IMG/VR virus record: IMGVR_UViG_3300030419_002488
Location: 1 to 56,244 of that record
From: a virus
Strand: one strand, 5' to 3'
DNA: 56,244 bases
In this document: piece by piece, positions 14,340 through 56,244 of the stretch
How the letters are laid out: each line of letters opens with the position of its first letter
Numbering within the stretch: position 1 is the first letter of the stretch
Translations under genes and position numbers: made by a program
Notes under the pieces: generated by a model
What the model was told of the DNA's origin: nothing
The model's database searches: none
Seen by the model: the letters and a program-made list of their open reading frames with translations, nothing else

Positions 14340-14936
14340 ATGGCAGAAGAAATAGAAATAGAAATGGAAGAACAAGATGTGCCAGTTGGTTCTATTGAAG
14401 CAAAAGATGATTTTGCTGTAGCACCTCCCGGACATTCCTTAACACAAGATAATTCTAAATGGGCGTGGGGAAAACCTCCACAAGATGTTGACCCAGAGGT
14501 AGTCTTAGAAAAAGCCATACGGGGATTAAAAAACAAAAAAACTCAACAAGAAATGCAAAAATTACTTTTTGCGGGAGTGTCTGTTGAAACAATGGTAGAA
14601 GGGTATATACTTCAAGGATTTCACGAAGGTAAGTTTACCCCAGATGTAGGGCTACTTATAAAAGCTCCTTTAGCAATAGTTATTGCTGACATGGCTGAAC
14701 GAAATTCTATACCTTATCGTATGTTTGAAAACAACGATGCAGGGCAAGAAGGTGTTATGGATGATAAGACATTTTTTAGAATGATTAAAACAAATAACCC
14801 ACGTATGTTCGAGTACATAAGAGAAAGTGTTAATCAGGCAATACGACAAGGAAATGAACCTTTACCAGAAGAGACTGAAGAAAACTTTTTAAACATGAAC
14901 CCACCAACAGAAGAAACAGAGGAAGAAAAGATATGA
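14340..14936 (+). CDS. Virion structural protein of a type shared with cyanophages
   Basis: A 198-aa acidic protein. The stretch PPGHSLTQDNSKWAWGKPPQ followed by DVDPEVVLEKAI is a signature I recall from a virion protein family of marine T4-like and podo-phages. Then come FAGVSVETMVEGYILQGFHE and GKFTPDVGLLIKAPLAIVIA. The C-terminus is very acidic (EETEENFLN, EETEEEKI). Its stop overlaps the start of the next gene. Role in the particle unknown. Confidence 0.65.
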   Translation: MAEEIEIEMEEQDVPVGSIEAKDDFAVAPPGHSLTQDNSKWAWGKPPQDVDPEVVLEKAIRGLKNKKTQQEMQKLLFAGVSVETMVEGYILQGFHEGKFTPDVGLLIKAPLAIVIADMAERNSIPYRMFENNDAGQEGVMDDKTFFRMIKTNNPRMFEYIRESVNQAIRQGNEPLPEETEENFLNMNPPTEETEEEKI

Positions 14937-20300: not shown

Positions 20301-22143
20301 TTTAGGTGAAAGTGCAACTTACTTAGATATTGCTTTACATTTAAGTAGACAAGAAGGTTCAACTTTAAAACCATTTCAAGGTAAACCTTTTGAATTAGAA
20401 GAAATGAGAAGACATTTTATGGGAGTTGCAAGAAGACTAGAAAACTCTAATCCCTCGTTAAGTAATAAATACAACGAATACGCAAATAAAATAGATACTT
20501 TATTAAAAACAGATAAAGTAAAATACGAAAAAATTACTCAAGCAAGAAAACAATATCAAGCATTAAGATTTGATCCTAAACGTAAAGGTTCGTATGGGGA
20601 TGAGTTAGATAACGCTAGAATAGGACCTGCCTATGTTGACCAAAACCCTGATGGGTATAAATACCCTTACAAGAAGGGATTTCTACCTGAAAATTTCCAC
20701 GATGGTTTTGGAAAAAACATAGACGGTCTACTACAAGGTACGTTAAAATCAACAGATGAATTAAAAACCCAAATGGAACAATTAGTAAGATTTTGGGCAA
20801 GAGGAGATAATGCTCCCCCCCTTGTATTTGATGTAAGCACACCTCAAGGAAGAAAAAAACTTAAAGTTGTTAGTCAGCTTGTTAAAATGAGTTTATATGA
20901 ACATTGGGGTGAAGCTCGAAAAGCCGTTGTAGAAAAATTAAAAGCACAAGCTAAAGAAGGAATTAAAATTAAAGCTTCGGATTATAATTTTACGGCGGCG
21001 GATAATATTAATAAATTACAAGATGTTTTTGTTGTTAACGTTAAAACTGCAGATGGAGAAATTCAACCTCGAACATTAGTTGATGTAGGTGATATTGTAG
21101 CTGAAGAAAAAGAACTTATGACTTTAATGGAATTAAGTGGTGATATGCAAAAAAGGTATGATAAATTAGCTAGAGATATAAATAGTACAGGGGGATTACT
21201 TAAAGAAAAAGCAATGAAAGAAATTAGTATACAAGAAAAAGGTGTAAAAGAGTTAGATAAAATAATTGGCTCTGATTCAATGCAGATATATAACAATTAT
21301 GTTTATAAAAAACCTCCTAGTATGATGTTAGCACTTAAAGAACAATATGTTGATACTAAACTAGCGGCTTTAGGAGATACCGTAGATACGGAAACTCTTA
21401 TGACAAGTCGCCTTGTGTTTGAAAAAGAATTTGATCAAGGTATGCTGTACCATGTTATGAACGCCCTTCAAGAAAGATCAGAATTAAAAAGAAGCCCTAA
21501 AACTTTAACTGGTTTTGATGGTGATCAATTTAATTTAATGACTATGGATAATGCAGGACAACTTGCATCTGATTTAAGTGAAGAGTCTACTCAACAAATT
21601 TTAAAACAGCTTGGGTTTACACAAGACCACGTTCAGCACGTACAAGACATAGCTCGATACATGGAATTTGCACAAGGATCATCTCTTGCAAGATATGATT
21701 TACAAGGAAATGTAAGATCTATATCTCCTAACGAATTAATTAGTCGTGCCTTTAACTTAGCAAGAGGAATGGTTAGTCCAACTTATGTTGCGGGTGAAAT
21801 GGGTGTTAGATTAGCAATGTCAAAAAATATTCAAATAATGAATCTAGCGGCTCAAAGTAAGGAAGCAGCAAGCATAATGCTTGACATGCTTAAAAACCCT
21901 AGAGCAGTATCACCAGATAGAGTAAAAACATTTGGAGTATTAGTAAATGAGTTTGTAATTACAGAGTTTACAAGACTTGGTTTAAAAGCTCCACAGTTTT
22001 TACCTCAAGACGACATTATGGCTGCACGTATGCAACAAAAGGAATTTTCGTTTGATTCGTTTAAACACCTATTTAAAGGTAGAAAGCCACAACCTATTGA
22101 AAGAGAATACATAACTCAACCATTAAGTGCCGTAAAAAGTTAA
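17356..22143 (+). CDS. Giant internal virion / DNA ejection protein (1595 aa)
   Basis: The longest gene of the window. Residues 1-90 are acidic and disordered, with a TDTTT repeat. Most of the rest is charged helix. Residues about 530-590 contain a Gly/Ala-rich hydrophobic stretch (EIVMGLGQGFGYEIANYFGF) that could enter a membrane. Several long coiled coils occur (e.g. LMDKQIDDLKNQL at about 479). Giant helical proteins in this position are ejected into the host to form a channel for DNA in T7-like phages (gp16). No catalytic motif was found. Starts in a TAATG overlap. Confidence 0.65.
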   Translation: MEILSKDMINTENENNETEKNVVVEPEKKVVETDTTTTDTTTTDTTTEDKNPLSSQYAGYYEDSSDTTTTNADNEVEVNVNVDPSELPTANLSDPNLKNIVKKDLALQKEDQTITLDKVLSGEINFVNNKEINPIIREKANQGDAKSLLYLESQVNQAKNVDKEVTIGGVRKKEVSIDPRLQPIPEQHSESLKAYAEGRLLVLNALRKNNPATNEPYVVDTDVQQLIVDYFSTGNFYTEMSRRFAQSGRGITLLPVLLNMAYNLAGATKDAFDLPEDVQKYFFGEVEDETFEKSWESRQAGMAEFYSRYKTTVEKVFSGLTAAQGINDDLKEKYIERHGIDQYNEFYTIKNPEGKVIDMPIISTEVGEELYRLGFQELPLAQRFAAMIIENVGFGGLLAKLKVKKGQLQMQDITDLKTSNPTRYKNLSPIEVLRVSKIDNATNAFTKAYHQTIATLGRKFKARGAVAAHQIDLNRKNTLELMDKQIDDLKNQLNNTSLLRRERDLINSKIENIQSQKAKYIFPYARKTFVKTVMKDEIVMGLGQGFGYEIANYFGFSTDAGEFFGAMSTAIQAPQFLIRKGIGIPAGWVNRWTGGAVSNFAATIEALPFIPKGAFIDRRFDTLRDEMGEALTGKQRLAIEKIAEIIKDLSPDKRELVWQSINEYQQLRTRILNHFKDPEKKEKARKLFSLQFSHVTGLAPLIALERRAAVKLSANGKNLDEAIEYQLQSENAMAAATEAMENLKIMLKEEVGVDITDRTLVADFAENFKDASIKFERNVNETKIEYLKLLNDFKDKMLSNPELPLDENLITRLAEMEVKVTRGATDDIEKQREIYQKVTEQVTEALNKRSENIIALRGKPGYKKRMGRWIEDVYDVMEDNLQNQSRLIYKPIDDMEGEYDLTSLVDDMLDKKENLDSNILRSKFGADGEFFKGKSGRYARQAFDAMAKRAIIKDLGLDGKEWAELVTYHTSPATLKNFPDDFLGESATYLDIALHLSRQEGSTLKPFQGKPFELEEMRRHFMGVARRLENSNPSLSNKYNEYANKIDTLLKTDKVKYEKITQARKQYQALRFDPKRKGSYGDELDNARIGPAYVDQNPDGYKYPYKKGFLPENFHDGFGKNIDGLLQGTLKSTDELKTQMEQLVRFWARGDNAPPLVFDVSTPQGRKKLKVVSQLVKMSLYEHWGEARKAVVEKLKAQAKEGIKIKASDYNFTAADNINKLQDVFVVNVKTADGEIQPRTLVDVGDIVAEEKELMTLMELSGDMQKRYDKLARDINSTGGLLKEKAMKEISIQEKGVKELDKIIGSDSMQIYNNYVYKKPPSMMLALKEQYVDTKLAALGDTVDTETLMTSRLVFEKEFDQGMLYHVMNALQERSELKRSPKTLTGFDGDQFNLMTMDNAGQLASDLSEESTQQILKQLGFTQDHVQHVQDIARYMEFAQGSSLARYDLQGNVRSISPNELISRAFNLARGMVSPTYVAGEMGVRLAMSKNIQIMNLAAQSKEAASIMLDMLKNPRAVSPDRVKTFGVLVNEFVITEFTRLGLKAPQFLPQDDIMAARMQQKEFSFDSFKHLFKGRKPQPIEREYITQPLSAVKS
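17452..17496 (+). repeat. Three perfect 15-bp tandem repeats
   Basis: The unit ACAGATACAACTACA is repeated three times without a mismatch, in frame, encoding (T-D-T-T-T)3 in the disordered N-terminus of the giant virion protein. A related GATACAACTACAACC lies 54 bp further on. Such a repeat can change copy number without breaking the frame. Confidence 0.9.
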
Positions 22144-34198: not shown

Positions 34199-34383
34199 TG
34201 GATATGAACGAATTTTCAAGGCAATTACAACACAATGTTATCAAACCATTTAAAGATGGTGTAGAAGATGGATTGTTACATGGGGAACGAGATGAAAGGC
34301 AAGGTAGTCATTACTACAAACAAGGTTATGACTATGGTATTTATCTACATGGTGAACTTAAAATAGAGGAGAATAGTGAATGA
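34198..34383 (+). CDS. Small protein upstream of the methyltransferase
   Basis: A 61-aa protein with FSRQLQHNVIKPFKDGVEDG and YYKQGYDYGIYLHGEL. The alternating aromatic and glycine residues suggest a small compact domain. It is coupled by TAATG upstream and ATGA to the methyltransferase, so it may be an accessory of it. No family recognised. Confidence 0.58.
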   Translation: MDMNEFSRQLQHNVIKPFKDGVEDGLLHGERDERQGSHYYKQGYDYGIYLHGELKIEENSE

Positions 34384-35522
34384 ATTGGTTAAATTTATGT
34401 AGTGGTGGTGAGATAGGTCGCCAAGCAGTAAAAGAGTTAGGACTACCAGTAGATAACTGGTTTAGTTCAGAAGTAGATAAGTTTGCTATCAAGGTAGCTA
34501 AAGATAATCATAAAGATGTAATTCACATAGGTGACATTTGTAATGCACTTCACAATACACGAACATTAAAGATAGATGTTATGCTTTGTGGTTCACCCTG
34601 TCAGGGTTTTTCAGTTGCGGGTAAAGGGTTGAACTTTGAACACCCGCAATCAAAATTATTTTTTGAATTTGTCAAGATATACAAATACCATTATGAACGC
34701 TTCCCCCAAATGAAGTTATTATTTGAAAATGTAAGAATGAAAAAAGAGTGGCAAGATATTATTGTCAACACATTACAAGAGATTAACCCAAACTTAAAAT
34801 TACACATTATTAATTCATCTATCGTGTCAGCACAGAATAGGGTGCGAATGTATATCACGGATTTTGATTTTAAGATACCTGAAGATAGAGGTATTAAACT
34901 TAAAGATATAGTTGAGTGTGGTTGTGTAGATAGGGAGAAGTCTTATTGTTTAGATGCTAACTATTGGAAAGGTGGTAATTTAAAGTCTTATTTTGAAAAG
35001 TCACGCAGACAATTAGTGTTCGGAGATGGTTGCAAACAAGTTGGAATTGCTGATCTAAATGGACATGATATACTCAAGCGTGTCTATTCAGTTGAAGGAA
35101 AGTCACCAACATTAAATACTTGTGGTGGTGGTAATCGTGAACCAAAGATACTTTGTAAATCAGCGTCAATTACTGGTCGTAGACTAGACAAACAAGGCAT
35201 ACGCAAAGATAACGATTTGTCAATTCCAATAACACAAACATTAGAAGTTTCAAACAAAGATAAATCTCGTTGTCTATCTACAATAACCAAAGATGCAGTT
35301 GTTTCACCACTACCAGTTGGTCGTTATCCAGATGCGTATGAAAATAATTCTTTACAATGGAGAAAATTGTCTGTAAAAGAATGTTGTCGGTTGCAAACAT
35401 TACCAGATGACTATTGTAAATCAGTTAGTAATAGTCAGGCATATAAGATACTTGGTAATGGTTGGACTAACGAAGTAATTAAATTTATTTTAAAAGGGGA
35501 AAATAAAAATGAAAGTAAATGA
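34380..35522 (+). CDS. DNA (cytosine-5) methyltransferase, orphan
   Basis: A 380-aa protein. Motif I is degenerate (LNLCSGGEIGRQAVKELG). Motif IV is GSPCQGFS with nucleophile C74. Motif VI is ENV (E116). Motif VIII is QNRVR (152-156). Motif IX/X lies in the C-terminus (LSVKECCRLQTLPDDY, then AYKILGNGWTNEVI). VEGKSPTLNTCGGG is part of the target recognition region. It transfers a methyl group to C5 of cytosine. No partner restriction enzyme is nearby, so protection of phage DNA or gene control is likely. Confidence 0.9.
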   Translation: MNWLNLCSGGEIGRQAVKELGLPVDNWFSSEVDKFAIKVAKDNHKDVIHIGDICNALHNTRTLKIDVMLCGSPCQGFSVAGKGLNFEHPQSKLFFEFVKIYKYHYERFPQMKLLFENVRMKKEWQDIIVNTLQEINPNLKLHIINSSIVSAQNRVRMYITDFDFKIPEDRGIKLKDIVECGCVDREKSYCLDANYWKGGNLKSYFEKSRRQLVFGDGCKQVGIADLNGHDILKRVYSVEGKSPTLNTCGGGNREPKILCKSASITGRRLDKQGIRKDNDLSIPITQTLEVSNKDKSRCLSTITKDAVVSPLPVGRYPDAYENNSLQWRKLSVKECCRLQTLPDDYCKSVSNSQAYKILGNGWTNEVIKFILKGENKNESK

Positions 35523-41772: not shown

Positions 41773-42088
41773 TTATAAAGCATATTATCAAAACAAAAAA
41801 GAAGCTGATAAAAAAGCAAGTAAAACAAATTATCAGCGACCAAGAAAAACTGATTACGTAGAAATAGAAAATAGACCCGGATACAGACCAACTGGTGTTC
41901 CCGGTGGGGGAGGTGCTGCTTTGTGGATAGCTTCTAAATTTGGAGCATTTGACAAAAAAGTAAGTGCAACACGCCCACCTGATCAAGTAGGAATAAATCC
42001 AAAAACTAAAACGTATAAAACAGGATCAAAAAAAGAAAAGAAGGCGGGTAAGCTAAAAAAATTATTTGGTGCAAAACCCGCAAATTAA
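41765..42088 (+). CDS. Basic protein between the terminase genes, unknown
   Basis: A 107-aa Lys-rich protein, MADYKAYYQNKKEADKKASK, with a Gly-Gly-Gly-Gly-Ala-Ala hinge at about residue 53 and a Lys-rich C-terminus (KKEKKAGKLKKLFGAKPAN). AAAAGGAA lies before the ATG. It might bind DNA during packaging. No family recognised. Confidence 0.6.
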   Translation: MADYKAYYQNKKEADKKASKTNYQRPRKTDYVEIENRPGYRPTGVPGGGGAALWIASKFGAFDKKVSATRPPDQVGINPKTKTYKTGSKKEKKAGKLKKLFGAKPAN

Positions 42089-42089
42089 T

Positions 42090-43775
42090 ATGACCGAACA
42101 ACCGAAGCGTGGGAGACCCAAGAAAGATCCCAACGCACCTAAATCATCCTATTATTATTCCTTTGCAGTAAAGGCACGTAAACAATCACAAAAGAGGTTA
42201 CGAGATGCCAAAAAAAGAGCAGAAAAGGTTACGAAGCAGGCTGAAAGCAAACGTAGGTACGCACGAAAGCTTGAAGAAAAAATTACGAAAGTCGAGAAAG
42301 GACTCACCAGTAATGAAACCACACTTATTGATAAAGCAGATTTGGAAAGTTTGCCTAACGCCGTTGAACAACTTGTGGATGGGCGTGAAATTATTTTTAA
42401 ACCAAATGAAGGACCTCAAGAAGAATTTCTTTCCTCGAGTGAAAGAGATGTTTTGTACGGCGGTTCAGCAGGGGGCGGAAAAAGTTTTGCCTTACTTACA
42501 GACCCCCTTAGGTATTGCCATAACGGCAACCATCGTGGGCTTCTTCTTAGGCGTACTCTGGATGAGTTAACCGAACTCATAGACAAATCACGACAGCTTT
42601 ACCCTAAAGCGTTTCCCGGTGCAAAATTTAGGGAATCAAAATCAACGTGGCATTTTCCATCGGGAGCAACCATTTGGTTTACGTACCTAGATAAAGACAA
42701 AGACGTAACTCGATTTCAAGGGCAGTCGTTTAACTGGATCGGCATAGACGAAATAACCCAATACCCAACACCATACGTTTGGGATTATCTTCGTTCACGA
42801 CTTCGTGCAACTGATCCCGAGTTACAAAATAATTTGTATATGCGTTGCACAGCCAATCCGGGTGGAGTTGGTGGTTGGTGGGTAAAAAAGATGTATATTG
42901 ACCCATCAGATCACAATTCTACGTTTCCTGCAGTAGACATCGAAACAGGAAAACCATTTTTGTGGCCCAATGGTCACGACAAAGCGGGGCAACCATTATT
43001 TTATCGCAGGTTCATTCCTGCCCGTTTAACTGACAACCCATACCTGTTAGCAGACGGACAATACGAAGCGATGTTGCGTTCACTTCCTGAAGTTGAACGT
43101 AAACGATTGCTCGAAGGAGACTGGGAAGTCACGGAAGGTGCAGCGTTCCCAGAATTTTCAAGGAGTAAACATGTTACACCGCCTTTTGAGTTACCTACCA
43201 ACTTCCCACGAATACGTGCCGCCGACTACGGCTACTCGAGTCCGTCGTGCGTTCTTTGGGGGGCTATTGACTGGGATAATAATATCTGGGTTTATCGTGA
43301 ATTATACGTAAAACACTTGACAGCAGAGCAGTTAGCCGATAGAATACTAGAAACAGAAGAAGACGACCCAACACCACACTATACAGTCCTTGACTCTTCG
43401 TGTTGGAACAAAACAGGATTTGGTCCTTCGATAGCCGAAACAATGATGAGATCAGGAGTGCGTTGGTTGCCCTCTGATCGAAACCGACTTCAAGGAAAAA
43501 TGGAAATACATCGTAGGCTTGCCGATGACCCTCGAACAAACGAACCTCGACTACGAATATTTCCGAATTGTGTCAACCTTATCAAGCAACTGGCAGGTAT
43601 ACCTCTTAGCAAAACAAATGCAGAGGATGTTGATACAAAGGCAGAAGATCACGCATACGATGCACTAAGGTATATGTTAATGACAAGAACAACAGGATAC
43701 GTTTCAATACACAAGTCCTTACAAGGAATTAAAAATCAGGTGTACCAAGTACACGATCAAACATTTGGATATTAA
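42090..43775 (+). CDS. terL: Terminase large subunit
   Basis: A 561-aa packaging motor. The ATPase has Walker A GGSAGGGKS (K131), Walker B WIGIDE (D220, E221) and the coupling motif CTANPGG. The RNase H-like nuclease has D379 (IRAADYGYSS), D435 (YTVLDSS) and D520/D524 (EDHAYDALRY). The N-terminal 75 residues are a basic extension starting with an AT-hook-like KRGRPKKDP followed by a charged coiled coil, unusual for the family. The ATG begins two bases behind the previous stop. Confidence 0.95.
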   Translation: MTEQPKRGRPKKDPNAPKSSYYYSFAVKARKQSQKRLRDAKKRAEKVTKQAESKRRYARKLEEKITKVEKGLTSNETTLIDKADLESLPNAVEQLVDGREIIFKPNEGPQEEFLSSSERDVLYGGSAGGGKSFALLTDPLRYCHNGNHRGLLLRRTLDELTELIDKSRQLYPKAFPGAKFRESKSTWHFPSGATIWFTYLDKDKDVTRFQGQSFNWIGIDEITQYPTPYVWDYLRSRLRATDPELQNNLYMRCTANPGGVGGWWVKKMYIDPSDHNSTFPAVDIETGKPFLWPNGHDKAGQPLFYRRFIPARLTDNPYLLADGQYEAMLRSLPEVERKRLLEGDWEVTEGAAFPEFSRSKHVTPPFELPTNFPRIRAADYGYSSPSCVLWGAIDWDNNIWVYRELYVKHLTAEQLADRILETEEDDPTPHYTVLDSSCWNKTGFGPSIAETMMRSGVRWLPSDRNRLQGKMEIHRRLADDPRTNEPRLRIFPNCVNLIKQLAGIPLSKTNAEDVDTKAEDHAYDALRYMLMTRTTGYVSIHKSLQGIKNQVYQVHDQTFGY

Positions 43776-43779
43776 ATAA

Positions 43780-45747
43780 ATGGCGGCAGGAACACAAGCA
43801 TATATAGTAGATCAAGATTATGATCCTAGAACTATTACTTTGGAAGAATGGCTTTCTATGTTTGAAAAAGAAAGCACTGAAACTGGTGGTAGACAAAATA
43901 AAACTTGGGGTAATTTAATAAGAAATAATAAAATTACCAAAAAATATTTAAATCAACCTGTCATAACATTATTTGGTGCAGTTCCATCTGAATCACAAAG
44001 TATATTGGCTGACATTCAAAATGCTGCAGGTAAGCAAGCCAGTACTGTACAATCTAAATTTAGAGTAATAGAAGCAAACATATTTCCTAAATTAGCCGTG
44101 CTTGGTAAAAAAGAAGGGGTTAATTTATTATCAGGTTATACAAAAATATCTGAAGAAGTTAAAAAACTACAAACTAGAGGGGGAAAATTTACAGCTACTA
44201 AAGGTTTTAATGTATCTAAAATTGGGGAACTTGTAAAAAATCTACAAGAACACGTAAAAAAATTTCCAGAAGATAAACCCATAGCAAACGCAATTATTTT
44301 TAATTTAGAAAATGGAAGCAGACCAAGTTTAACAACAGAACTAAGAACTGTCCATTACATACCAAATCAGCTTGGAGAAACAGGAGCTGCAATGGGTTTT
44401 ACAGGCAGGGATGGTTTACTAATACAAGCAGGAACTAAAGGCGTTAAAAGACAAGCAAAGGGTCAAGCTCCGAATATACAACCTTACAATGCCCCTTTAT
44501 CAAAAAGAGGTATAACTATACTCCAAGATCAAAGTGATTATAATTCTAAAATTATAGGAGATAACAAAAAGTTAGATTTTTTCTTTCAAGTATTAGATAA
44601 AAAAGGTAACCCCAGACCAATCACTTTATCTGACATAAACAGAGTTCTTGATAAAACCAGTCCTGTTGGGTTGTTGGTAGAATACACAAAGACGGGAACA
44701 AAACCTTTAAAAACTCCAATAACAGCAAAAAATTTAAGAAATCTATTTATAAACTCAGCAAGTCTTGCTATAAAAAATAAAGAAAACATATCTATGTTAA
44801 CTAATAGAGATGTTTCAGTAAATACAGGGTCACAAGATATTTATATAGGTAAACCCGGACAATACAATCAAGGTGCTATAGACGATTTAGATAGAATAAG
44901 CCAAACAAATTGGGGATTCTTTACTTTACTTGATAAAGAAAATAAACAAATTTACGATCAGTCTGGAGATATGTTAAATCCAAATTCTTTTATATTTGGT
45001 AAAAATGAAATAAATCCTGAAACAAAAACATTCGTTCCAGACAACAAAGAATATACAAAGTTTATGGATGCAAATCCAAAAGAAATTTCTATACAAACAA
45101 AAGGATTTTCTCCGCCACTAGAAGAAGACTTAATAGAAAGTGAATCTAAAATGGTAAAAGGTGGTGGAGACATAATTTCTCCCAATAATTTTTCAGATGG
45201 ATTAAAAGAAAAATTAGCAAAGAAAAATATAAAACTTGGAAGTGGAAAATTAAAATCTGTAGATCCGTTTTCTATAGGTTTAGGAATAGGAGCAGGTGTT
45301 GAACTGCTAGACAATGCGGGAGAAATTGTTGCAGAAGAAGCCACTACATCAACAATTGGTGCAGCGGCGACCAGAACAATGCCTAGATTAATGCAAACCG
45401 CAGCAGGAAGAGCATTACCTGTAGCAGGTGCAGGATTTGTTTTTCCAACTTCTCCTACAAGTGTAGATGAGATAGAAGGTTTTGCAAGACAAGACATAGA
45501 TAGACGTTTTGGTGGTATAGATCAAATGGACACATCTCAAGAAAAACAAATATACAGAGATGATCCTAGAGTAAGGAGAGGTACAGGAATGTATGACCCT
45601 TCATACTTACCAACCCGTGATCCAAGTGATCCTCTGAGTGACGAAGCTCAAAGAGAAAGATTTCTAGCACGAGCTAGAGAAAAAGCAAGTTCAGGAGTAC
45701 GTGGATTTGTTCAAAAAGCAGAAAAGCAAAAACAAGCAGGGAGATAA
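43780..45747 (+). CDS. Tyrosine-recombinase-like protein in the packaging module
   Basis: A 655-aa protein. Residues 145-360 follow the order of a tyrosine recombinase catalytic domain: a box I-like segment (IFNLENGSRPSLTTELR, Arg181), a basic hairpin then NAPLSKRGITIL (about 214-248), a box II-like ITAKNLRNLF (Arg320), and LTNRDVSVNTGSQDIY with Tyr355. Both usual histidines are replaced (Lys317, Asn342). Residues 1-140 are helical, as in a core-binding domain. Residues 450-655 form a Gly/Pro/Arg-rich tail that looks like a virion protein. It lies between terL and portal. It may be an inactive or altered recombinase, or a structural protein using the fold. Confidence 0.5.
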   Translation: MAAGTQAYIVDQDYDPRTITLEEWLSMFEKESTETGGRQNKTWGNLIRNNKITKKYLNQPVITLFGAVPSESQSILADIQNAAGKQASTVQSKFRVIEANIFPKLAVLGKKEGVNLLSGYTKISEEVKKLQTRGGKFTATKGFNVSKIGELVKNLQEHVKKFPEDKPIANAIIFNLENGSRPSLTTELRTVHYIPNQLGETGAAMGFTGRDGLLIQAGTKGVKRQAKGQAPNIQPYNAPLSKRGITILQDQSDYNSKIIGDNKKLDFFFQVLDKKGNPRPITLSDINRVLDKTSPVGLLVEYTKTGTKPLKTPITAKNLRNLFINSASLAIKNKENISMLTNRDVSVNTGSQDIYIGKPGQYNQGAIDDLDRISQTNWGFFTLLDKENKQIYDQSGDMLNPNSFIFGKNEINPETKTFVPDNKEYTKFMDANPKEISIQTKGFSPPLEEDLIESESKMVKGGGDIISPNNFSDGLKEKLAKKNIKLGSGKLKSVDPFSIGLGIGAGVELLDNAGEIVAEEATTSTIGAAATRTMPRLMQTAAGRALPVAGAGFVFPTSPTSVDEIEGFARQDIDRRFGGIDQMDTSQEKQIYRDDPRVRRGTGMYDPSYLPTRDPSDPLSDEAQRERFLARAREKASSGVRGFVQKAEKQKQAGR

Positions 45748-45749: not shown

Positions 45750-45971
45750 ATGCCTAACAATGACTACAATTATGGACCATCTTATGTTATGAACTCAGAT
45801 AAGACATCTCATAACGACCCGATGGGTTCTAATCAGTTATACAGGGAAAAGAAAGAGTTCTCAACTAAAATTGATGGTAACGCTTTACAGGTAGACATGC
45901 CAAAGAAGCAAACTAAACCAACAGTTGAAGCATCTTTCAACAAAATGGCTGACGATAAAAACTACTTCTAA
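45750..45971 (+). CDS. Small protein upstream of the portal
   Basis: A 73-aa polar, probably unstructured protein (MPNNDYNYGPSYVMNSDKTS). It starts two bases behind the previous stop. The middle (SNQLYREKKEFSTKIDGNAL) is charged. No family recognised. Presumably a virion accessory from its location. Confidence 0.6.
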   Translation: MPNNDYNYGPSYVMNSDKTSHNDPMGSNQLYREKKEFSTKIDGNALQVDMPKKQTKPTVEASFNKMADDKNYF

Positions 45972-45986: not shown

Positions 45987-48098
45987 ATGGCTGATGATAA
46001 TTTTCTTCAACCTGAAGATGATACTAGCGTGCCTATACTTGATCCGTCTGGAGAAATGCCGGGACTAGCGGGGTACGTTAAAAGTAAGTTTGAAGATTCA
46101 GAAAACGGCAGACGCACACACGAACAGCGTTGGTTACAAGCGTATAAAAACTTTAGAGGAATTTACGATTCTACAACTCAATATCGTGATTCTGAACGTT
46201 CTAAAGTATTTATAAAAATAACCAAAACAAAAGTTCTTGCAGCGTATGGGCAGATAATAGATATATTGTTTGCTAACAAAAAATTTCCATTGGTGGTTGA
46301 GTCAACTCCTAAACCTGAAGGTATAGAAGAATTTGCTCACATGAAAACACCTGTTGATGAGATGTCTGATCCGTACGGGTTTGAAGGAGATGGTAACGAA
46401 CTTCTTCCGGGAGCTATGTCGGTTAAAGAACCTCATAAACTCGGCTCTTACGGAAAAGAATTTTCTGATATGCTTGTTGCAGGACCCGCAAAGATGGGTG
46501 AACCTCAAGTTAAGCCTGCACAAAAGATGGCTATGCGTATGGAAAAATGTATTCACGATCAGTTGTTGGATACAAATGCTGTTAACGTATTTCGTCAAGC
46601 AATTTTTGAATCATCTTTACTCGGTACAGGTATCGTAAAAGGACCTTTTAATTTTTACAAAAGAGTACATAAATGGGAAAGAGATGAAAATGGTCAACGA
46701 GTTTACACACCTTATGAAAAAATAGTACCTCGTATAGAACACGTTTCTTTGTGGGATTTTCACCCCGATCCGTCAGCAACAAGTATGGATGATTGTGAAT
46801 ACGTTATTCAACGTCATCGTATGAACCGCCAACAACTTCGTGGTCTTATTAAACGCCCTCATTTTGATTCTACAGCTATTGAAGAATGTCTTGCAAAAGG
46901 TTCTAATTACGAAGATAAGTATTACGAAGATACAATCCGAGAAGATGAAACAGAACCTTACCATCAAGAAAGTAGATATGAAGTTCTTGAATATTGGGGG
47001 GTAATTGATAAAAAATACGCTACCGAAATGGGCATGGAAAATGCTAATCAAATGTCAGAATTTGATCAGGCACAAGTTAATGTTTGGGTGTGTGGTAATA
47101 TGGTAATTAGATGCGTTGCAAACCCATTTACTCCTGCACGGATACCTTATCAAGCATTTCCATTTGAAATTAATCCTTACCAATTGTGGGGAGTTGGTGT
47201 AGCAGAAAACATGGAAGATGCACAGATGCTTATGAACGGTCACGTTCGTATGGCAATAGACAATCTCGCACTTGCAGGTAATCTTGTATTTGATGTAGAC
47301 GAAGCAAGTCTTGTTCCCGGACAAAACATGGATATATTTCCCGGAAAAATATTCCGAAGACAATCAGGAGTAACAGGTACTGCTATTAATGGATTAAAAT
47401 TTCCTAATACTGCACCAGAAAATATACAAATGTATCAAATATCAAGGCAACTTGCAGATGAAGAAACAGGTATACCTTCTATACTTCACGGACAAACAGG
47501 AGTAACGGGTACAGGTAGAACTGCTGCAGGATTATCAATGTTGATGGGTTCAGCAAGTTTGTCTATGAAAACAGTTATAAAGAACATAGATGATCACCTT
47601 TTAAAACCAATTGGTGAATCGTTCTTTCAGTGGAACATGCAATTCAATCCAGATATTGAAGACATGGAAGGGGATCTTGAAATAAAACCACGTGGTGTTG
47701 CTGCAGTTATGCAAAAAGAAGTACGCACACAACGATTAACTGCGTTACTTCAAACTGTATCTAATCCAATGCTTGCACCTTTTATAAAAATACCAAATTT
47801 AATAAAAGAACTTGCAATAGCACAAGATATTGATCCAGAAACTTTAGTTAACGACCATAATGAAGCACAGCTATATGCTGAAATGTTAAAAGGAATGATG
47901 CAAGATGCTCAACAAGGAACAGGCGAAAATGCTGTCGCCCCTAATCAACAGCAAGGAATGGGGCAACCTAGTGGACTACCTCAACAGCCTGAAGGAACTG
48001 ACAGTCAAGGGTCTGGTAACGGCACAATCGGAGTCGGAGCTACGCCAACTGCAGGGGAAACTGGCTTTACTGGAAATGCTCCTAGAGTTGAAGAATAA
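45987..48098 (+). CDS. Portal protein
   Basis: A 703-aa protein of podovirus portal size. Characteristic segments include RRTHEQRWLQAYKNFRGIYD, YGQIIDILFANKKFPLVVES, a crown/clip region with NPYQLWGVGVAENMEDAQML, and TGRTAAGLSMLMGSASLSMK. The last 75 residues are Gln/Gly/Pro-rich and low in complexity (QQQGMGQPSGLPQQPEGTDS). That part is also read in a second frame by the next gene. The portal forms the dodecameric ring through which DNA enters. AAGGTAAA precedes the ATG. Confidence 0.82.
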   Translation: MADDNFLQPEDDTSVPILDPSGEMPGLAGYVKSKFEDSENGRRTHEQRWLQAYKNFRGIYDSTTQYRDSERSKVFIKITKTKVLAAYGQIIDILFANKKFPLVVESTPKPEGIEEFAHMKTPVDEMSDPYGFEGDGNELLPGAMSVKEPHKLGSYGKEFSDMLVAGPAKMGEPQVKPAQKMAMRMEKCIHDQLLDTNAVNVFRQAIFESSLLGTGIVKGPFNFYKRVHKWERDENGQRVYTPYEKIVPRIEHVSLWDFHPDPSATSMDDCEYVIQRHRMNRQQLRGLIKRPHFDSTAIEECLAKGSNYEDKYYEDTIREDETEPYHQESRYEVLEYWGVIDKKYATEMGMENANQMSEFDQAQVNVWVCGNMVIRCVANPFTPARIPYQAFPFEINPYQLWGVGVAENMEDAQMLMNGHVRMAIDNLALAGNLVFDVDEASLVPGQNMDIFPGKIFRRQSGVTGTAINGLKFPNTAPENIQMYQISRQLADEETGIPSILHGQTGVTGTGRTAAGLSMLMGSASLSMKTVIKNIDDHLLKPIGESFFQWNMQFNPDIEDMEGDLEIKPRGVAAVMQKEVRTQRLTALLQTVSNPMLAPFIKIPNLIKELAIAQDIDPETLVNDHNEAQLYAEMLKGMMQDAQQGTGENAVAPNQQQGMGQPSGLPQQPEGTDSQGSGNGTIGVGATPTAGETGFTGNAPRVEE

Positions 48099-48126
48099 TT
48101 ACGGAAAAGTTATAAAGAATGGCTAG
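47905..48126 (+). CDS. Gene overprinted on the 3' end of the portal gene
   Basis: A 73-aa helical protein read in the +1 frame over the last 194 bases of the portal gene. NLVDYLNSLKELTVKGLVTA and SESELRQLQGKLALLEMLLE look like real coding sequence, and the ELRxLQG pattern occurs in small proteins next to portal genes of other phages. Its stop overlaps the start of the next gene by 8 bases. The portal frame is low complexity in this stretch, whereas this frame gives a regular helical protein, so this frame seems to be the selected one. Function unknown. Confidence 0.72.
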   Translation: MLNKEQAKMLSPLINSKEWGNLVDYLNSLKELTVKGLVTAQSESELRQLQGKLALLEMLLELKNNYGKVIKNG

Positions 48127-50692
48127 TGAACTTTTTGATTTTGGTTTAGACTTTGGTCTTAGTTATTTTGAACCTGTTACAAAAAAAGTAACAGCAAAAA
48201 AATACCGAGAAGAAGATGTTGACTACTATGATCAAACATTAGGATTAAAATCAGGAATTTATGTTCCAAGTCAAAAAGAAGAAATAGAAAAAAAAGAAAA
48301 AAAAAGAAACATTAATGTAAATGTGGTGGGCATTGATGATGACGACGACGATGATGGTGTTACAGGGGAAGGTACTGTTTTTCAACAATCTAAAGAAGAA
48401 TTAGCTAATCAAGCTAAGTTGGATAAAGATACTTCTTATGAAAATATAAATTCTTTAAAACTTGGAACTTACGGTGATGCTTTATCTTCGTTAGGATATA
48501 AAGATAAATCTCCATTTAATGTTTTTGGTCAAGATATATATTTAGCAGGAGTTCCAAAAAATAAAGAAGAAGCAAAAAAAGGATTTGAAAAAGTATTTTC
48601 TTCTGAAAATTTAATAAAACAAACAGTAAAAACTGGTGCAAGATTAGCGGGATTTAACCCTCTTATATCTGGAGGGGCTGTGTCTTTTGGGTTTGGAAAA
48701 CAAATAACTGATCCTCTTGGTAATCCAAGTTTTCGACCAAGTAATTTTGTATTTGGTGGAATACACGATATAAATATGTCAATTCAATACGACAATGTAC
48801 GTGAAATACAAAATGCTATAAAATCAGGTTCAAAAACTAAAGGATTTGTTGAATACATAGATGGACAATTAGTTAGTAGAAGCCCAACGGGGTCTAATTA
48901 TACTGGAACAACAGATTTAACGCACGAACAACTTAAAAGGAGAGACGCTTTAAAAAGAGGAATTATACCTTCAACATTTAACTTAAAAACGGAAACAGGC
49001 GAAAGAGGTGAAAGTATTACGTTAAAAGACGGAAGTAAAGCTGTTTATGATAATTATGGTCGATACCACTCCCGAACTGGAACTTCATATTATGGGTCAC
49101 GAAATGCTTCTATTGCGTTAGCTGAAAAATATGGCACAAATTATAAAGAAATTGAAAAAGTGCTTAGTGAAGTAAGAAGTTCAGGAAAAGGTAATTTATA
49201 CGAAATTTTAAATACACGGTTTGGTGGGATTAGTGATTTTGTTGATTTAAAATCTTCTTCTAAAAAAGATAATATATGGGGTATTAATCGTAGAAAAGTA
49301 AGCACTGTTAGAAATCTTCCAAATTATAATGTTTACATGGAATCTCTTGATTACCCTGTGCGTATTAAAGATAGAGGTATAGCAGGCGGAGGGTTTGATT
49401 TTAAATCAGGTGTAATGGATAAAGGTCCGGGAGGAAGTTATTTTTTTAGTGAAACAGAAGGCACAGATGTTTATAGTGAAGATGAATCTGATGAAAAACC
49501 AGATCTTAGCAAAGTAGCTGAAGACGATCCTGCAAGAGGATCATACGAATCTTGGGTGCAAAGTTTAGAAGATAATAACGATGAAAGTTCTGCACCTGAT
49601 ACATCAAGTATGGATACTTCTATGGGTTATACTGCTTACGGCGGACAGATAGGTCGGGGTATGCAAGCGGGTGGTCCTGCAGGTTTTATTGGAGGTCCTC
49701 CAGAAAAATACGGAAATCAAACAACCGTAGCAGATGACATACCTCTTGAAGTAAAAGAAGGTACTTTTGTTATAAATGCACCTGCTGTAGAGTATGCAGG
49801 ATCAGATGATATTAGTAAAATGTTAATTAAAGCATACGAAAAAGCAGGACAAGGGGTTGACAAATCTGGACAAGTTACTAAAATACCAAGTAAGGAACAA
49901 GTTGATATAATGATCTCACGAGGTGAGGTTGTAGTACCCCCAAACATAGCAAAAATTATAGGATACGATAGATTAGAGAAAATAAATAATCGTGGTAAAA
50001 AAGAAGTTGCACGAAGACAACAAAGAGCAGGCGACCAAGAAAAACCACAAGCTATGCAAGGATTTATAAATAAAGCAGGGGGAGATAAGATCACCGTGCA
50101 TAGAGGTGAACCTTACCCTGAACAAATTAGTAAGTTTGACAAGAAATACATGTCAGGTCGAAGAACGACAGGAGCATGGTTTTCATCAAACAAAAGTTAC
50201 GCTAAAATGTACGGTCAACTTCAAAAAAGTTTAGATGTTACTTTTGATGAGTACGCAAAAGGTGCAAGAAAAGCTGAAATTTATAGAAACATAGCTTCAA
50301 TGCAATCCGAAAGTGGTAAACGACAACTAACAAAAAATCAAAAGACAAAACTATTTAAACATGTAAAAGAAATAAAACAAATGGCTAAGCAAGTAAAAGA
50401 TGGAAAAGTAGACCCTAAAAGATTTGTAAACACTTTACACATGGCTCTTTTTCCAGAAAAAAAAGAAGAAGCGACAATTAGAAAAATTGAAAGTTACAAG
50501 AATAATCCAAAACTTTTTGGTAAACTTGTAGTTCGTAATTTAGCAAACAACATTGTAACAAAAGGCGTTCCTTTTTTAAGTAAACTTTCACCGATAGGAA
50601 GTATTGCGGGTATGCTTACCCCAACGGAAATGGGAGACGCAACATTAGATTCAAGAGGATTTGTGGATTATAATCCAAATTTTCCACAATAA
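48119..50692 (+). CDS. Virion protein with ADP-ribosyltransferase-like C-terminus
   Basis: An 857-aa protein. Residues 1-500 are a poorly characterised region with a D7 run near 75. Residues 520-640 (Gly-rich, then VADDIPLEVKEGTFVINAPA and QVDIMISRGEVVVPPNIAKI, then IGYDRLEKINNRGKKEVARR) form a module found in marine phage virion proteins. Residues 655-700 contain ITVHRGEPYPEQ (Arg662) and TGAWFSSNKSYAKMYG (Ser689/690), resembling the R and S parts of an ADP-ribosyltransferase NAD site. The third (Glu) motif is not clear. The last 140 residues are basic. It might be injected and modify the host. Confidence 0.55.
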   Translation: MASELFDFGLDFGLSYFEPVTKKVTAKKYREEDVDYYDQTLGLKSGIYVPSQKEEIEKKEKKRNINVNVVGIDDDDDDDGVTGEGTVFQQSKEELANQAKLDKDTSYENINSLKLGTYGDALSSLGYKDKSPFNVFGQDIYLAGVPKNKEEAKKGFEKVFSSENLIKQTVKTGARLAGFNPLISGGAVSFGFGKQITDPLGNPSFRPSNFVFGGIHDINMSIQYDNVREIQNAIKSGSKTKGFVEYIDGQLVSRSPTGSNYTGTTDLTHEQLKRRDALKRGIIPSTFNLKTETGERGESITLKDGSKAVYDNYGRYHSRTGTSYYGSRNASIALAEKYGTNYKEIEKVLSEVRSSGKGNLYEILNTRFGGISDFVDLKSSSKKDNIWGINRRKVSTVRNLPNYNVYMESLDYPVRIKDRGIAGGGFDFKSGVMDKGPGGSYFFSETEGTDVYSEDESDEKPDLSKVAEDDPARGSYESWVQSLEDNNDESSAPDTSSMDTSMGYTAYGGQIGRGMQAGGPAGFIGGPPEKYGNQTTVADDIPLEVKEGTFVINAPAVEYAGSDDISKMLIKAYEKAGQGVDKSGQVTKIPSKEQVDIMISRGEVVVPPNIAKIIGYDRLEKINNRGKKEVARRQQRAGDQEKPQAMQGFINKAGGDKITVHRGEPYPEQISKFDKKYMSGRRTTGAWFSSNKSYAKMYGQLQKSLDVTFDEYAKGARKAEIYRNIASMQSESGKRQLTKNQKTKLFKHVKEIKQMAKQVKDGKVDPKRFVNTLHMALFPEKKEEATIRKIESYKNNPKLFGKLVVRNLANNIVTKGVPFLSKLSPIGSIAGMLTPTEMGDATLDSRGFVDYNPNFPQ

Positions 50693-50702: not shown

Positions 50703-50767
50703 TCAGCTACCCACGTATTAGTGGCCCTGATTGAACCGAAGCAGCTACCCACAGCCAGTGGCACTGC
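50703..50767 (+). promoter_or_regulatory. Tandem matching hairpins before the scaffold gene
   Basis: Two stem-loops of one design. The first is TCAG-ctac-CCAC-gtatta-GTGG-cc-CTGA. The second is GCAG-ctac-CCAC-agcca-GTGG-ca-CTGC, ten bases further. The outer pair changes from T-A to G-C, a compensated change that supports RNA pairing. They lie in the leader of the scaffold gene, 19 bases before its ATG, so control of scaffold/capsid translation or mRNA stability is likely. A GTG-initiated frame runs through the second hairpin. Confidence 0.7.
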
Positions 50768-50786
50768 ATTAATGAGGTATAAAACA

Positions 50787-51722
50787 ATGGCAACAACAAA
50801 AGTAAGAGGTGTAAGAGCCAACAAACCAAACGACTCCTTTGGAGTGACAAATAACCCTAATCTTTATCGAGGTAAATACCGAGAGGAAGTTTACAAAGAT
50901 GATGAAGAAGGGCAACAAGAAGAGCAACAAAACGAAGAAGCTCAAACTGACCCCACTGAAAAAGTGGCTACTCAACAGAGTGATACCAGTTTTGCAGAAA
51001 AAAAGGTAAAAGAAGAAGATCACGATTACAAAAAACGTTATGATGATTTAAAAAAACATTATGACACAAAACTCAACGAGTTTAAAGGTGAACGTGAAGA
51101 ACTTCAAACTCAATTAGACGCTGTTAAAAAACGGGTGTATGAAATGCCAAGAGGTACGACTCCACCTAAAACAATGGAAGAACTAGAGGAATTTAAAGAA
51201 AAATACCCTGACGTTTTTGAAGTTGTTGAAACAGTATCTAACATGCAAACTGAATCCCAAGTTGCAAAACTTCGTGAGGAAATAGATTCTGTAAAGAAAC
51301 GGGAAAAGAATCTTGAAAAAGAAAAAGCATTTGAAGAACTTCTTCGATTGCACCCTGACTTTCACGATCTAAAAACTAACGAAAAATTTTTAAGTTGGCT
51401 TGATGAACAACCTGAACAATTGAGTGATGGTATTTATAAAAATAATACTGACGCAAAATGGGCAGGTAAAATCATATCTCTTTACAAGGCAGAGAATGGA
51501 ATCTCTACCACAACAAAGAAGTCTACCAAATCAAAAGAAGCTACTGATGCTGCAGCAACGGTTACAAAACAACAACCAAGAGAGGTTGCAACAAAAGAAG
51601 GTTCTAATAAAAAGATTTGGAAGAGTTCTGAAATCGCCAAGCTTAAATCGTGGGAGTTTGAAAAGCTTGAAAAAGAAATAGATCTAGCACGAGAAGAAGG
51701 GCGAATAGACGTAAATAACTAA
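50787..51722 (+). CDS. Capsid scaffolding protein
   Basis: A 311-aa acidic, almost wholly helical protein just before the capsid gene, typical of scaffolds. The centre is a coiled coil (YDDLKKHYDTKLNEFKGERE, then LQTQLDAVKKRVYEMPRGTT). The C-terminal part (IWKSSEIAKLKSWEFEKLEK) is a basic/acidic helix that would bind the capsid protein. GAGGT lies before this ATG. The frame is open 22 codons further upstream to a GTG (MALIEPKQLPTASGTA), which cannot be excluded as start. Confidence 0.78.
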   Translation: MATTKVRGVRANKPNDSFGVTNNPNLYRGKYREEVYKDDEEGQQEEQQNEEAQTDPTEKVATQQSDTSFAEKKVKEEDHDYKKRYDDLKKHYDTKLNEFKGEREELQTQLDAVKKRVYEMPRGTTPPKTMEELEEFKEKYPDVFEVVETVSNMQTESQVAKLREEIDSVKKREKNLEKEKAFEELLRLHPDFHDLKTNEKFLSWLDEQPEQLSDGIYKNNTDAKWAGKIISLYKAENGISTTTKKSTKSKEATDAAATVTKQQPREVATKEGSNKKIWKSSEIAKLKSWEFEKLEKEIDLAREEGRIDVNN

Positions 51723-51752: not shown

Positions 51753-52742
51753 ATGGCTTTCGGTACATCTGCGGGGTACGCTAACTTACCTAGTGGTAAT
51801 TTTGCACCCTCAATTTTTAGCCAAAAGGTTCTCAAATTCTTTAGACGTGCTTCGGTTGCAGAGGATATTACTAATACCGATTACACTGGGGAAATTGAAA
51901 ACTTTGGTGACACCGTAAATATAATCAAAGAGCCTACAATCACTGTATCAGCGTATACAAGAGGTTCTGTGGTTAACCCTCAAGACTTGGCTGACGATCA
52001 AGTCCAATTAACTGTTGATCAAGCAAATGCTTTTGCATTTAAGATCGACGACATTGAAGAAAGACACTCCCATGTAAACTGGGAAGCGTTATCTACTTCT
52101 TCAGGAGCTTACTCCTTGAAGAGAAAGTACGATGCTAACGTTCTTCAAGTTATGTCAGACGGAGCAGGTATTGTATCTTCTGCAGTATCTGGTACAACTC
52201 CAACATCTACAGAAGCTGCAGGCGTTTTAGGAACAGCAAATGCCCCTATTAACGTTGAAACTGACGATGCAGGTATTAACTTAATGCTTACTATGGGAAG
52301 ACTTTTAGATGACCAATCTGTTCCTGAAGAAAACAGATGGTTCGTAGCACCTCCAAAGTTCTACGAAAAGGCTTTTCAAGCAGGGAACAAAATCGCTGAA
52401 GTACAAGTTACAGGCGATGGAACTTCTCCATTAAGAAACGGACTTGCAACAGTCGGTACTCTTGCAGGCTTTAGATGTTATAAGTCTACTGCACTAAACA
52501 GTACAGGTGGAACTGACCAAGTAACATTAACAGATGCTTCTGCTACATTAGCAACAGACTCATCTGAGCATATTGTTCTTGCAGGTCACATTTCAGCTTG
52601 TGCTACAGCGTCTCACATCGCTAAAACCGAAGTGGTACGTTCAACTGAATCATTCTCTGACGTTATTAGAGGGTTACATGTCTTCGGAAGAAAAGTACTT
52701 AGACAAGAAGCTCTTGTTCGTGGCGTTATAGATTACGCTTAA
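51753..52742 (+). CDS. Major capsid protein
   Basis: A 329-aa protein with the order of an HK97-type capsid protein of marine podoviruses: SIFSQKVLKFFRRASVAEDI, a P-domain start GEIENFGDTVNIIKEPTITV, the spine-helix region DQANAFAFKIDDIEERHSHV, and RWFVAPPKFYEKAFQAG. It follows the scaffold gene and a strong AAGGAGAG. No cleavable prohead part is evident at the N-terminus. It builds the head. Confidence 0.88.
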   Translation: MAFGTSAGYANLPSGNFAPSIFSQKVLKFFRRASVAEDITNTDYTGEIENFGDTVNIIKEPTITVSAYTRGSVVNPQDLADDQVQLTVDQANAFAFKIDDIEERHSHVNWEALSTSSGAYSLKRKYDANVLQVMSDGAGIVSSAVSGTTPTSTEAAGVLGTANAPINVETDDAGINLMLTMGRLLDDQSVPEENRWFVAPPKFYEKAFQAGNKIAEVQVTGDGTSPLRNGLATVGTLAGFRCYKSTALNSTGGTDQVTLTDASATLATDSSEHIVLAGHISACATASHIAKTEVVRSTESFSDVIRGLHVFGRKVLRQEALVRGVIDYA

Positions 52743-53314: not shown

Positions 53315-53944
53315 ATGTTATTACAGTTACTAAGTAAAGACGACGTAAAAAGATGTTTGGAACTTTGCCCAAGCATGGAAGATGGAAACAAAACACAACC
53401 CCTAAAAGGAATAAAGAAAAATTCAGAGTCAGTAAAAGTAGACGATGAAATAAGAAGTTTAATATCAGCACGAATTATACACAACCCGTTTGTTGATTCA
53501 GTTATTAACCCAACTCGTGTATCGGTTAATTTTTACAACCACTACAGAGAAGGTGATTATTACAACAAACATGTTGACAACTTTAAAGCCGAACCTAAAA
53601 TAAACCACACTTACTTTGATTACGGTTTTACAGTTTGTTTATCAAGTGATTATGAAGGTGGAGAGTTTGTACTTGACAACGAAATAGGTGAAATACCTTT
53701 TAAATTAAAAGCAGGTCAAGTTTTATTTTTTCCAATCATATACCCCCACAGCGTAAATAAAGTAACGGGGGGATTACGAAGAGCATTGATAGGGTGGTTA
53801 TCTACCAATATCAGTTACGAACAAAGTTACGTGTTGCGTAATCTTTACGAAGTAAACGCCCACGCAATTCAAAACAAACAAGATAACCTAGCTGTTAAAT
53901 CAACTATGGTTCAAAATTATCTAAAAAAATTATGGAGTAAATAA
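53315..53944 (+). CDS. 2OG-Fe(II) oxygenase (prolyl 4-hydroxylase / PKHD type)
   Basis: A 209-aa enzyme. Iron ligands H86-x-D88 (YYNKHVDNF) and H145 (FPIIYPHSVNKV), with R155 in GLRRALIGW to hold 2-oxoglutarate. SSDYEGGEFVLD between them is typical of the double-stranded beta helix of PKHD hydroxylases. The substrate is unknown: protein proline or lysine, or a base, are options. Such genes are auxiliary genes in many marine phages. AAAAGG lies before the ATG. Confidence 0.86.
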   Translation: MLLQLLSKDDVKRCLELCPSMEDGNKTQPLKGIKKNSESVKVDDEIRSLISARIIHNPFVDSVINPTRVSVNFYNHYREGDYYNKHVDNFKAEPKINHTYFDYGFTVCLSSDYEGGEFVLDNEIGEIPFKLKAGQVLFFPIIYPHSVNKVTGGLRRALIGWLSTNISYEQSYVLRNLYEVNAHAIQNKQDNLAVKSTMVQNYLKKLWSK

Positions 53945-55456: not shown

Positions 55457-55942
55457 ATGAAATATGACAGAGAAGAATTTGTAAAAATAGTAGCCAAACA
55501 CGAAGGAGTCGTGCTTGAACCTTATAAAGATTCATTAGGTATTTCTACTATAGGTATCGGGAGAAATCTTGAAGATCGTGGCATTACCGATGGTGAATTA
55601 ATGCACATGAACAGAGATCTCGAAGATATAGTTAATAATGGTCTTACTGAAGAAGAAGCATACTATCTCTGTATAAATGATATAAAAAATGTAGAAAAAG
55701 AGTTGGTTGCAAAAAAACCTATTGTTTTACAACTCGATGAAGCACGACAGATGTGTCTTGTTGATATGGGATTTAATATGGGTGTGCCAAGATTAATGAA
55801 ATTTGTTAATATGTGGAAAGCTATAGATAACGCTGATTTTCAATGGGCAAGCGAGGAGATGCTTGATTCCCGTTGGGCAAAACAAGTAAAGGGAAGAGCA
55901 ACACATTTATCAGAAGTTATGAGAACGGGGGAGTGGGCGTGA
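55457..55942 (+). CDS. Lysozyme (GH24, T4-type endolysin)
   Basis: A 161-aa muramidase that cuts peptidoglycan. Catalytic E16 (KHEGVVLEPYKDS), D25 and T31 have exactly the spacing of E11, D20 and T26 in T4 lysozyme. LGISTIGIGRN completes the site. DMGFNMGVPRLMKF and WAKQVKGRATHLSEVMR form the C-terminal lobe. No signal peptide is present, so export depends on the holin. The 3' third is repeated, with changes, at the start of the window. Confidence 0.93.
   Translation: MKYDREEFVKIVAKHEGVVLEPYKDSLGISTIGIGRNLEDRGITDGELMHMNRDLEDIVNNGLTEEEAYYLCINDIKNVEKELVAKKPIVLQLDEARQMCLVDMGFNMGVPRLMKFVNMWKAIDNADFQWASEEMLDSRWAKQVKGRATHLSEVMRTGEWA
55757..55854. repeat. Right terminal direct repeat, exact part
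   Basis: Identical to bases 1-98. From base 55855 on, the two copies differ, and the right one carries an inserted gene (55939-56175) before they meet again at about 56190. Confidence 0.95.
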
Positions 55943-56175
55943 GTATTCCAAAGAAAAGAACTAAAAAAAAAGATTTTTATAAAGAAGTAGAAAAATCAAT
56001 TAAAAAACGTGGTATACCTACTACACGCCAAGAAATAAAAATGTTTAAGGACAGACATAAATTTGAAGGGGTAGTTCCTAAATATCAAGAACCTAGACCA
56101 GTTGAAATACCGGGTGAACCTTCACCAAAAGCAAAAGAGCTACTCAAGCAAGGTAAAAAAGTTTATTTTTTATAG
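55939..56175 (+). CDS. Small basic protein, present in one end variant only
   Basis: A 78-aa Lys/Pro-rich protein (SIPKKRTKKKDFYKEVEKSI; TRQEIKMFKDRHKF; ending LLKQGKKVYFL). The GTG start overlaps the lysozyme stop (GTGA). The frame is open further upstream inside the lysozyme, which is not used here. In the left copy of this region the gene is missing and the cysteine-rich gene follows the lysozyme directly. No family recognised. Confidence 0.62.
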   Translation: MSIPKKRTKKKDFYKEVEKSIKKRGIPTTRQEIKMFKDRHKFEGVVPKYQEPRPVEIPGEPSPKAKELLKQGKKVYFL

Positions 56176-56183
56176 GGGAATAA

Positions 56184-56244
56184 ATGGACAAAAAGAAAAG
56201 ATGTGACACTTGCGAATGTTACGAATGTAACTGTGACGAGTGTG
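56184..56244 (+). CDS. Small cysteine-rich protein, N-terminal part (second copy)
   Basis: The first 20 codons of the same protein as 182-307, cut by the window end: MDKKKRCDTCECYECNCDEC. This copy starts at ATG with GGGGAA before it. From the second cysteine codon on it is identical in DNA to the left copy. It confirms the reading frame of the cysteine-rich gene. Confidence 0.8.
   Translation, partial: MDKKKRCDTCECYECNCDEC

Follow-up and report, generated by a model that had tools for sequence, protein, structure and literature searches.

The question raised by this locus is what a 655-aa protein, encoded directly between the terminase and the portal of a phage, does and why it is made there. 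The window, which is the whole stretch of DNA that was analyzed, is a 56,244-bp IMG/VR viral record of HMO-2011-like kind. Its terminase large subunit (TerL) is ~48–55% identical to those of cultured Roseobacter, Pelagibacter, and Puniceispirillum phages, and it also encodes a helicase, a lysozyme, a class II RNR, and a DNA polymerase A whose zinc region is DnaJ-like. The gene, here called X, is an ORF at 43780–45747 (+) with an ATG start. It begins 4 bp past the TerL stop (43775) and ends 2 bp ahead of a small ORF, p73 (45750). As a single sequence, X had no match of useful significance in Pfam, PHROGs, or the PDB, and tblastn of three X alleles against 50,697 phage records gave no credible match. 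Features of the region are listed below, with the basis of the assignment in parentheses where one applies.

42066..43775, +, terminase large subunit (TerL)
43780..45747, +, X, tyrosine recombinase with a long C-terminal tail, 655 aa (alignment, profile, fold)
43780..44184, +, X residues 1–135, helical N-terminal region, probably a core-binding domain (model; profile overlap)
44185..44934, +, X residues 136–385, catalytic domain (model and fold search)
44320..44322, +, Arg181 (Arg-I), 66/66 (family alignment)
44446..44448, +, Lys223, beta-hairpin Lys, 57 K + 8 R of 66 (family alignment)
44737..44739, +, Arg320 (Arg-II), 66/66 (family alignment)
44806..44808, +, Arg343, His-III position, 36 H / 30 R (family alignment)
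44842..44844, +, Tyr355, nucleophile, 66/66 (family alignment)
44935..45744, +, X residues 386–655, tail module exchanged between cores; 459–562 modeled as disordered
45703..45711, +, Gly642-Phe643-Val644, C-terminal [GS]F[ILV] motif
45750..45971, +, p73, small conserved ORF of 73 aa separating X from portal
45987..48098, +, portal protein, SU10 type
48119..50692, +, g857, variable virion protein, probably ejected; matches ART-PolyVal weakly; C-terminal motif as in X
50721..51722, +, conserved protein before the MCP, possibly a scaffold (phrog_13678; position)
51753..52742, +, major capsid protein (MCP)

Positions 1–239 and 55757–56244 at the two ends of the record overlap at 95–96% identity, one copy carrying an insertion of ~250 bp; because of this overlap the genome is probably essentially complete, with the contig ends representing two strain variants. 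G+C content is 35.3% in the window versus 50–51% in sister genomes G003, G004, and G006 (TerL ~80% identical), a contrast that suggests host shifts within the X-bearing clade. A C5-cytosine DNA methylase (34380–35522) and a 2OG-Fe(II) oxygenase (53315–53944) are patchy among sister genomes. An Rfam search of the window matched nothing.

Fold and active site

The original prediction placed a recombinase fold between terminase and portal, and both profile and structure searches returned tyrosine recombinases. A profile of the X family matched XerA (4a8e, E 2.7e-12), Tn1549 Int (6en0, E 3.4e-9), and XerD (1a0p, E 2.8e-8) with the boxes in register. Individually, 19 of 53 X members matched Pfam Phage_integrase at E ≤ 1 (best 1e-6), and up to 19 matched a PHROG integrase family at E ≤ 1 (best 8.8e-15). 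The family profile also overlapped the lambda Int core-binding region (E 6.7e-5), and the N-terminal region was modeled as helical.

AlphaFold was run on full-length X with the family alignment. Most blocks of residues 11–440 were modeled at pLDDT 73–98 with short weaker stretches, the core lying mostly at 80–98, and residues 459–562 were of low confidence. Lambda Int, XerH, Cre, Flp, and topo IB topped the Foldseek list for this whole model. The catalytic domain modeled alone had a mean pLDDT of 88.9 and a pTM of 0.89. Its best fold match was the S. aureus integrase 3nkh (E 5e-4, probability 1.00), and further matches were topo IB, Tn1549 Int, Xer, lambda Int, protelomerase TelA, Flp, and Cre; among the PDB matches listed for this domain, 50 of 50 fell within the tyrosine recombinase superfamily. 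For both models, PDB matches with meaningful probability were tyrosine recombinases, topo IB, and protelomerase. Fold-search E-values and TM-scores were modest, as expected because X is a divergent member with insertions.

The family alignment comprised 66 X proteins, mostly 10–20% identical to the X of the window. Arg181, Arg320, and Tyr355 are the only core positions invariant in all 66, and they align with the catalytic residues of Xer/Int. These same three residues had been named as catalytic before any relatives were known, which made the alignment a blind test that the prediction passed. A separate MAFFT run kept Arg181 and Arg320 invariant and Tyr355 at ≥90%. Lys223, which lies in the Lys/Arg hairpin noted earlier, is the hairpin lysine, with K or R in 65 of 66 proteins (57 K, 8 R, 1 N), and Phe269 is kept in 64 of 66. 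Arg-I, Lys, Arg-II, and the Tyr nucleophile are thereby present in the family in tyrosine recombinase order. Ahead of the Tyr, at the position of the His-III/Trp hydrogen-bond donor, residue 343 takes only two forms, H in 36 proteins and R in 30, of which R is atypical as a donor. The His-II column, 317, varies (S22, Y12, K10, T7, E5, G4, and others), and the H-x-x-R pattern is not kept. His-II is commonly present in tyrosine recombinases and not strictly defining, and the position varies elsewhere in the superfamily; HMO-2011 Int carries M there. The original prediction had both active-site histidines changed. Lys317 is indeed at His-II, and the counterpart of His-III is Arg343 rather than the Asn342 that had been proposed.

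Catalytic residues, profile matches, and predicted fold together identify X as a tyrosine recombinase whose active site is conserved. It is probably catalytically competent, with DNA cleavage and strand exchange predicted. A chance resemblance to integrases is excluded by the invariant catalytic columns, the profile matches, and the fold. A domesticated structural protein had also been put forward, in which the recombinase fold would be a head or connector component only and its chemistry lost. The position of the gene, the loss of His-II in the family, and the replacement of His-III by Arg in about half of it are in keeping with this. However, no core residues other than catalytic R, R, and Y are invariant in 66 proteins, the remaining two catalytic positions being K/R and H/R, and a scaffold would be expected to conserve its portal or TerL interfaces instead. 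With its catalytic residues better conserved than any other position in an extremely divergent family, X fits poorly with such a part, and the structural alternative is disfavored and scarcely credible.

Distribution, allele exchange, and the C-terminal tail

A TerL search recovered 80 viral contigs with TerL 78–95% identical to that of the window, which together with two direct X relatives gave 82 loci. All 75 loci that extend past TerL have exactly one X-profile match; the remaining 7 of 82, which have none, are contigs that stop at or just past TerL. The order TerL-X-p73-portal-g857-scaffold-like-MCP is found in the 75 X loci wherever the contig is long enough. The TerL-portal gap is 829–1704 bp with small ORFs inside in 57 HTVC033P-related contigs and almost nil in 77 CRP-2-related contigs. 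In cultured phages inspected, TerL adjoins portal or small ORFs lie between them (up to 219 aa, ctYwJ313). X was not found at this slot in the sampled HMO-2011-type and HTVC033P-type relatives. Present in 75/75 loci of its clade and missing from the other TerL-portal gaps, X is therefore a fixed, clade-specific insertion. Its expression is very probably late, with that of the packaging and head proteins.

The sequence of X is uncoupled from that of its neighbor. TerL identity and X-core identity are uncorrelated over 2080 phage pairs (Spearman 0.034), and 155 pairs with TerL ≥95% identical have a median X-core identity of 16%, with 81% of these pairs below 25%. Within alleles the core is under purifying selection (dN 0.104, dS 0.532 for the window versus L002; dN 0.038, dS 0.483 for L040 versus L046), and the tail diverges faster than the core in most within-allele pairs. 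Clustering separated 13 catalytic-core groups and 23 C-terminal-tail groups, with one tail type found on up to four core groups that include both H-type and R-type cores. With core and TerL identity uncoupled and 13 cores shuffled over 23 tails, X is therefore an exchanged allele in which both head and tail are exchangeable. X sequences nearly unrelated between phages of near-identical TerL suggest a fast-evolving enzyme, which may be carried inside the virus particle. The exchanged cores probably differ in DNA specificity. Because phages that are otherwise near-identical swap such cores at this locus, diversifying selection probably acts on the target.

Other highly variable genes genome-wide are g857, the genes for an 807-aa (14933–17356) and a 1595-aa (17356–22143) protein, and a fibre-like array. 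The 807-aa and 1595-aa proteins have no meaningful family matches and are mostly 22–29% identical between sisters where matched over their length. At 6955–10811, seven diverged copies of a 65-nt repeat lie within a run of ORFs of 120–160 aa; this is perhaps a tandem array of paralogous tail-fibre or decoration genes, and it varies strongly among sister phages.

Many X tails end in a short motif. [GS]F[ILV] occurs in the last 40 residues of 33 of 56 complete X proteins versus 18 of 269 other ORFs (Fisher p 1.2e-17, from samples that are not independent, X proteins being related). The enrichment is conservative because the background included the X and g857 ORFs of its eight genomes. The motif is found in only 4 of 8 loosely defined X tail lineages. 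It also ends 13 of 40 g857-slot proteins and several relatives of a 198-aa ORF upstream of the 807/1595-aa pair. X tails matched only other X proteins, which excludes a domain common to other virion proteins, and no known virion-delivery domain was found. The tail had no consistent Pfam match, and the recombinase is the only domain recognized in X.

The g857 protein flanks the portal, as X does. Its equivalents (L001–L083) have a conserved central region and a swapped C-terminal enzyme, and are split into two ORFs in some phages. The C-terminal enzymes are cell-wall hydrolases (Hydrolase_2) in 9 of 27, pesticin-type lysozymes in 3 of 27, and a weak ART-PolyVal match in the window. Because swapped cell-wall hydrolase, lysozyme, and ART domains are expected of ejected proteins, g857 is probably ejected with the DNA.

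Proposed role and alternatives

The preferred reading, given a probability of about 0.42, is that X is a target-diversified recombinase that is loaded in the virion, ejected with the genome, and active in the next cell. X would be made late alongside packaging and head proteins. Its N-terminal half, comprising the core-binding-like and catalytic domains, would bind and cut a specific DNA site via Tyr355, and the C-terminal tail, an interchangeable module, would load X into the particle near the portal. After ejection with the genome, X would act on DNA in the next cell, where its substrate would be either the incoming genome, to be circularized or joined, or a host site. Virion loading and ejection are the most speculative steps of this reading. 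More broadly, and with greater hesitation, such proteins may form a class of polymorphic virion-delivered site-specific recombinases with divergent cores and exchangeable delivery tails, injected to act at the first step of infection.

A role in late DNA processing would not need particle entry. X would resolve dimers, concatemers, or recombination intermediates in the same cell before or during packaging, as modeled on proposals for phiCbK gp143, P1 Cre, and baculovirus VLF-1. The gene lies directly between TerL and portal, a resolution role has been proposed for the tyrosine recombinase of phiCbK-like phages with no reported lysogeny (PMC3556154), and genome processing is the suspected function of VLF-1, an Int-family protein associated with the virion (PMC6669607). 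However, X has not evolved in step with the packaging motor, because phages with TerL ≥95% identical carry X cores ~16% identical, and relatives that share the gene order package their DNA with no X at the slot. Inverted-repeat scans (12-bp inverted arms, 4–10 bp spacers) likewise found no shared candidate resolution site. Palindromes were terminator-like or not conserved, and no conserved site specific to X was found. Hairpins upstream of terS, at 39542 (−) in the window and at L107:9522, L089:11535, L092:9968, and others, share a loop that is almost constant, AGATTAGTTTCT (AGATTAATTTCT in the window), and their arms show compensatory changes. They are terminator-like, and they were rejected as X sites because phages with unrelated X alleles carry them. 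A palindrome inside X (44784) was rejected as a cognate site, being unconserved in L002 and L015 and within chance expectation. Late processing is thus considered unlikely. Virion delivery is preferred over it because X and TerL would be expected to co-evolve if X served packaging in the same cell, and they do not.

X might instead be a displaced integrase that inserts the genome into the host chromosome, its diversity being exchange of att specificity and its late position incidental. No Phage_integrase match was found outside X in the window and ten sister records, where the three weak matches are X itself, so X could fill the role; HMO-2011 and CRP-2, in contrast, encode a canonical Int elsewhere in the genome. 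CRP-3, in the wider phage group, integrates, and subgroups IV–X have no identifiable lysogeny-related genes and were inferred to be possibly obligately lytic (PMC9038755). Against integration, the 4-bp and 2-bp gaps on either side of X leave no space for attP and no att-like gap, and a search of genome_contigs, where hosts are poorly sampled, found no close prophage relative. The X profile did not match HMO-2011 or CRP-2 Int, for which reason descent from an HMO-2011-type integrase was rejected, and a long allele-exchanged tail is not an integrase feature. Displacement is regarded as quite unlikely. Virion delivery is again preferred because an integrase would need neither the late-operon position nor the shared tail.

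A further alternative keeps injection and changes the purpose. As an effector, X would nick, relax, or rearrange host or rival-phage DNA, with diversity driven by target escape. The fold matches include topo IB and protelomerase TelA, hypervariability and module shuffling resemble those of polymorphic effectors, and in the window the neighboring g857 matches ART-PolyVal. Recombination is favored over relaxation, however, by the canonical GH box and by sequence similarity to Xer/Int, and no cognate immunity gene was identified. The effector alternative is judged improbable.

Comparison with known systems

HMO-2011-type phages rank among the ocean's most abundant phages (PMC9038755). If the clade of the window is an integrase-less subgroup, the inference of a possibly obligately lytic lifestyle (PMC9038755) misses a conserved and probably active recombinase, one too divergent for standard searches. 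If delivered by the virion, X would be a recombinase fixed beside the portal in a whole marine clade otherwise classed as without lysogeny genes. With strict catalytic identity and near-free sequence exchange, the locus offers a ready-made collection of what may be many DNA specificities.

Structural-module tyrosine recombinases of Tyrovirus (gp50), Perkons, and Lactococcus phage 949 are called "especially curious" in the available part of PMC9703825. Like X, they are encoded in the structural module with presumed late co-transcription. Unlike X, gp50 sits between neck and tape-measure genes with an attP-like inverted repeat adjoining, and the core/tail shuffling and allele replacement seen in X are not described for gp50-type recombinases in that part of the source (PMC9703825). 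The X locus offers a direct test of why a phage makes a recombinase at packaging time, a question raised there for gp50.

Baculovirus VLF-1 is, like the X family, of Int type; VLF-1 itself is found in a dsDNA virus particle and tied to genome processing. It is conserved and essential in baculoviruses, whereas X is confined to one clade and hypervariable, the two being compared by description (PMC6669607).

Polyvalent injected effectors of phages are typically encoded near late virion genes (PMC5512222). X shares with them a late context by portal and head genes, an enzyme head with exchangeable modules, and a possible injection, which is inferred for both (PMC5512222). Polyvalent proteins combine several disparate activities per polypeptide; X, in contrast, has one recognizable enzymatic domain. 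The words recombinase and integrase are absent from the main text of that survey (PMC5512222).

The ~300-aa integrase of HMO-2011 and CRP-2 is a tyrosine recombinase of the same wider phage group, but it is encoded elsewhere, is missed by the X profile, and is tail-less. In the literature searched, of incomplete coverage, no report was found of a virion-borne or co-injected phage tyrosine recombinase, or of a recombinase family at the TerL-portal boundary with X-like variability and head/tail shuffling. X resembles the Xer/lambda-Int family in fold, box order, and R-K-R-Y, with the (G)H box in about half of its members. It differs in that His-II is not conserved, His-III is Arg in about half, a long C-terminal tail is present, and the gene lies in the packaging operon. 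The kind of enzyme is already known, and its architecture, position, and evolutionary behavior are new.
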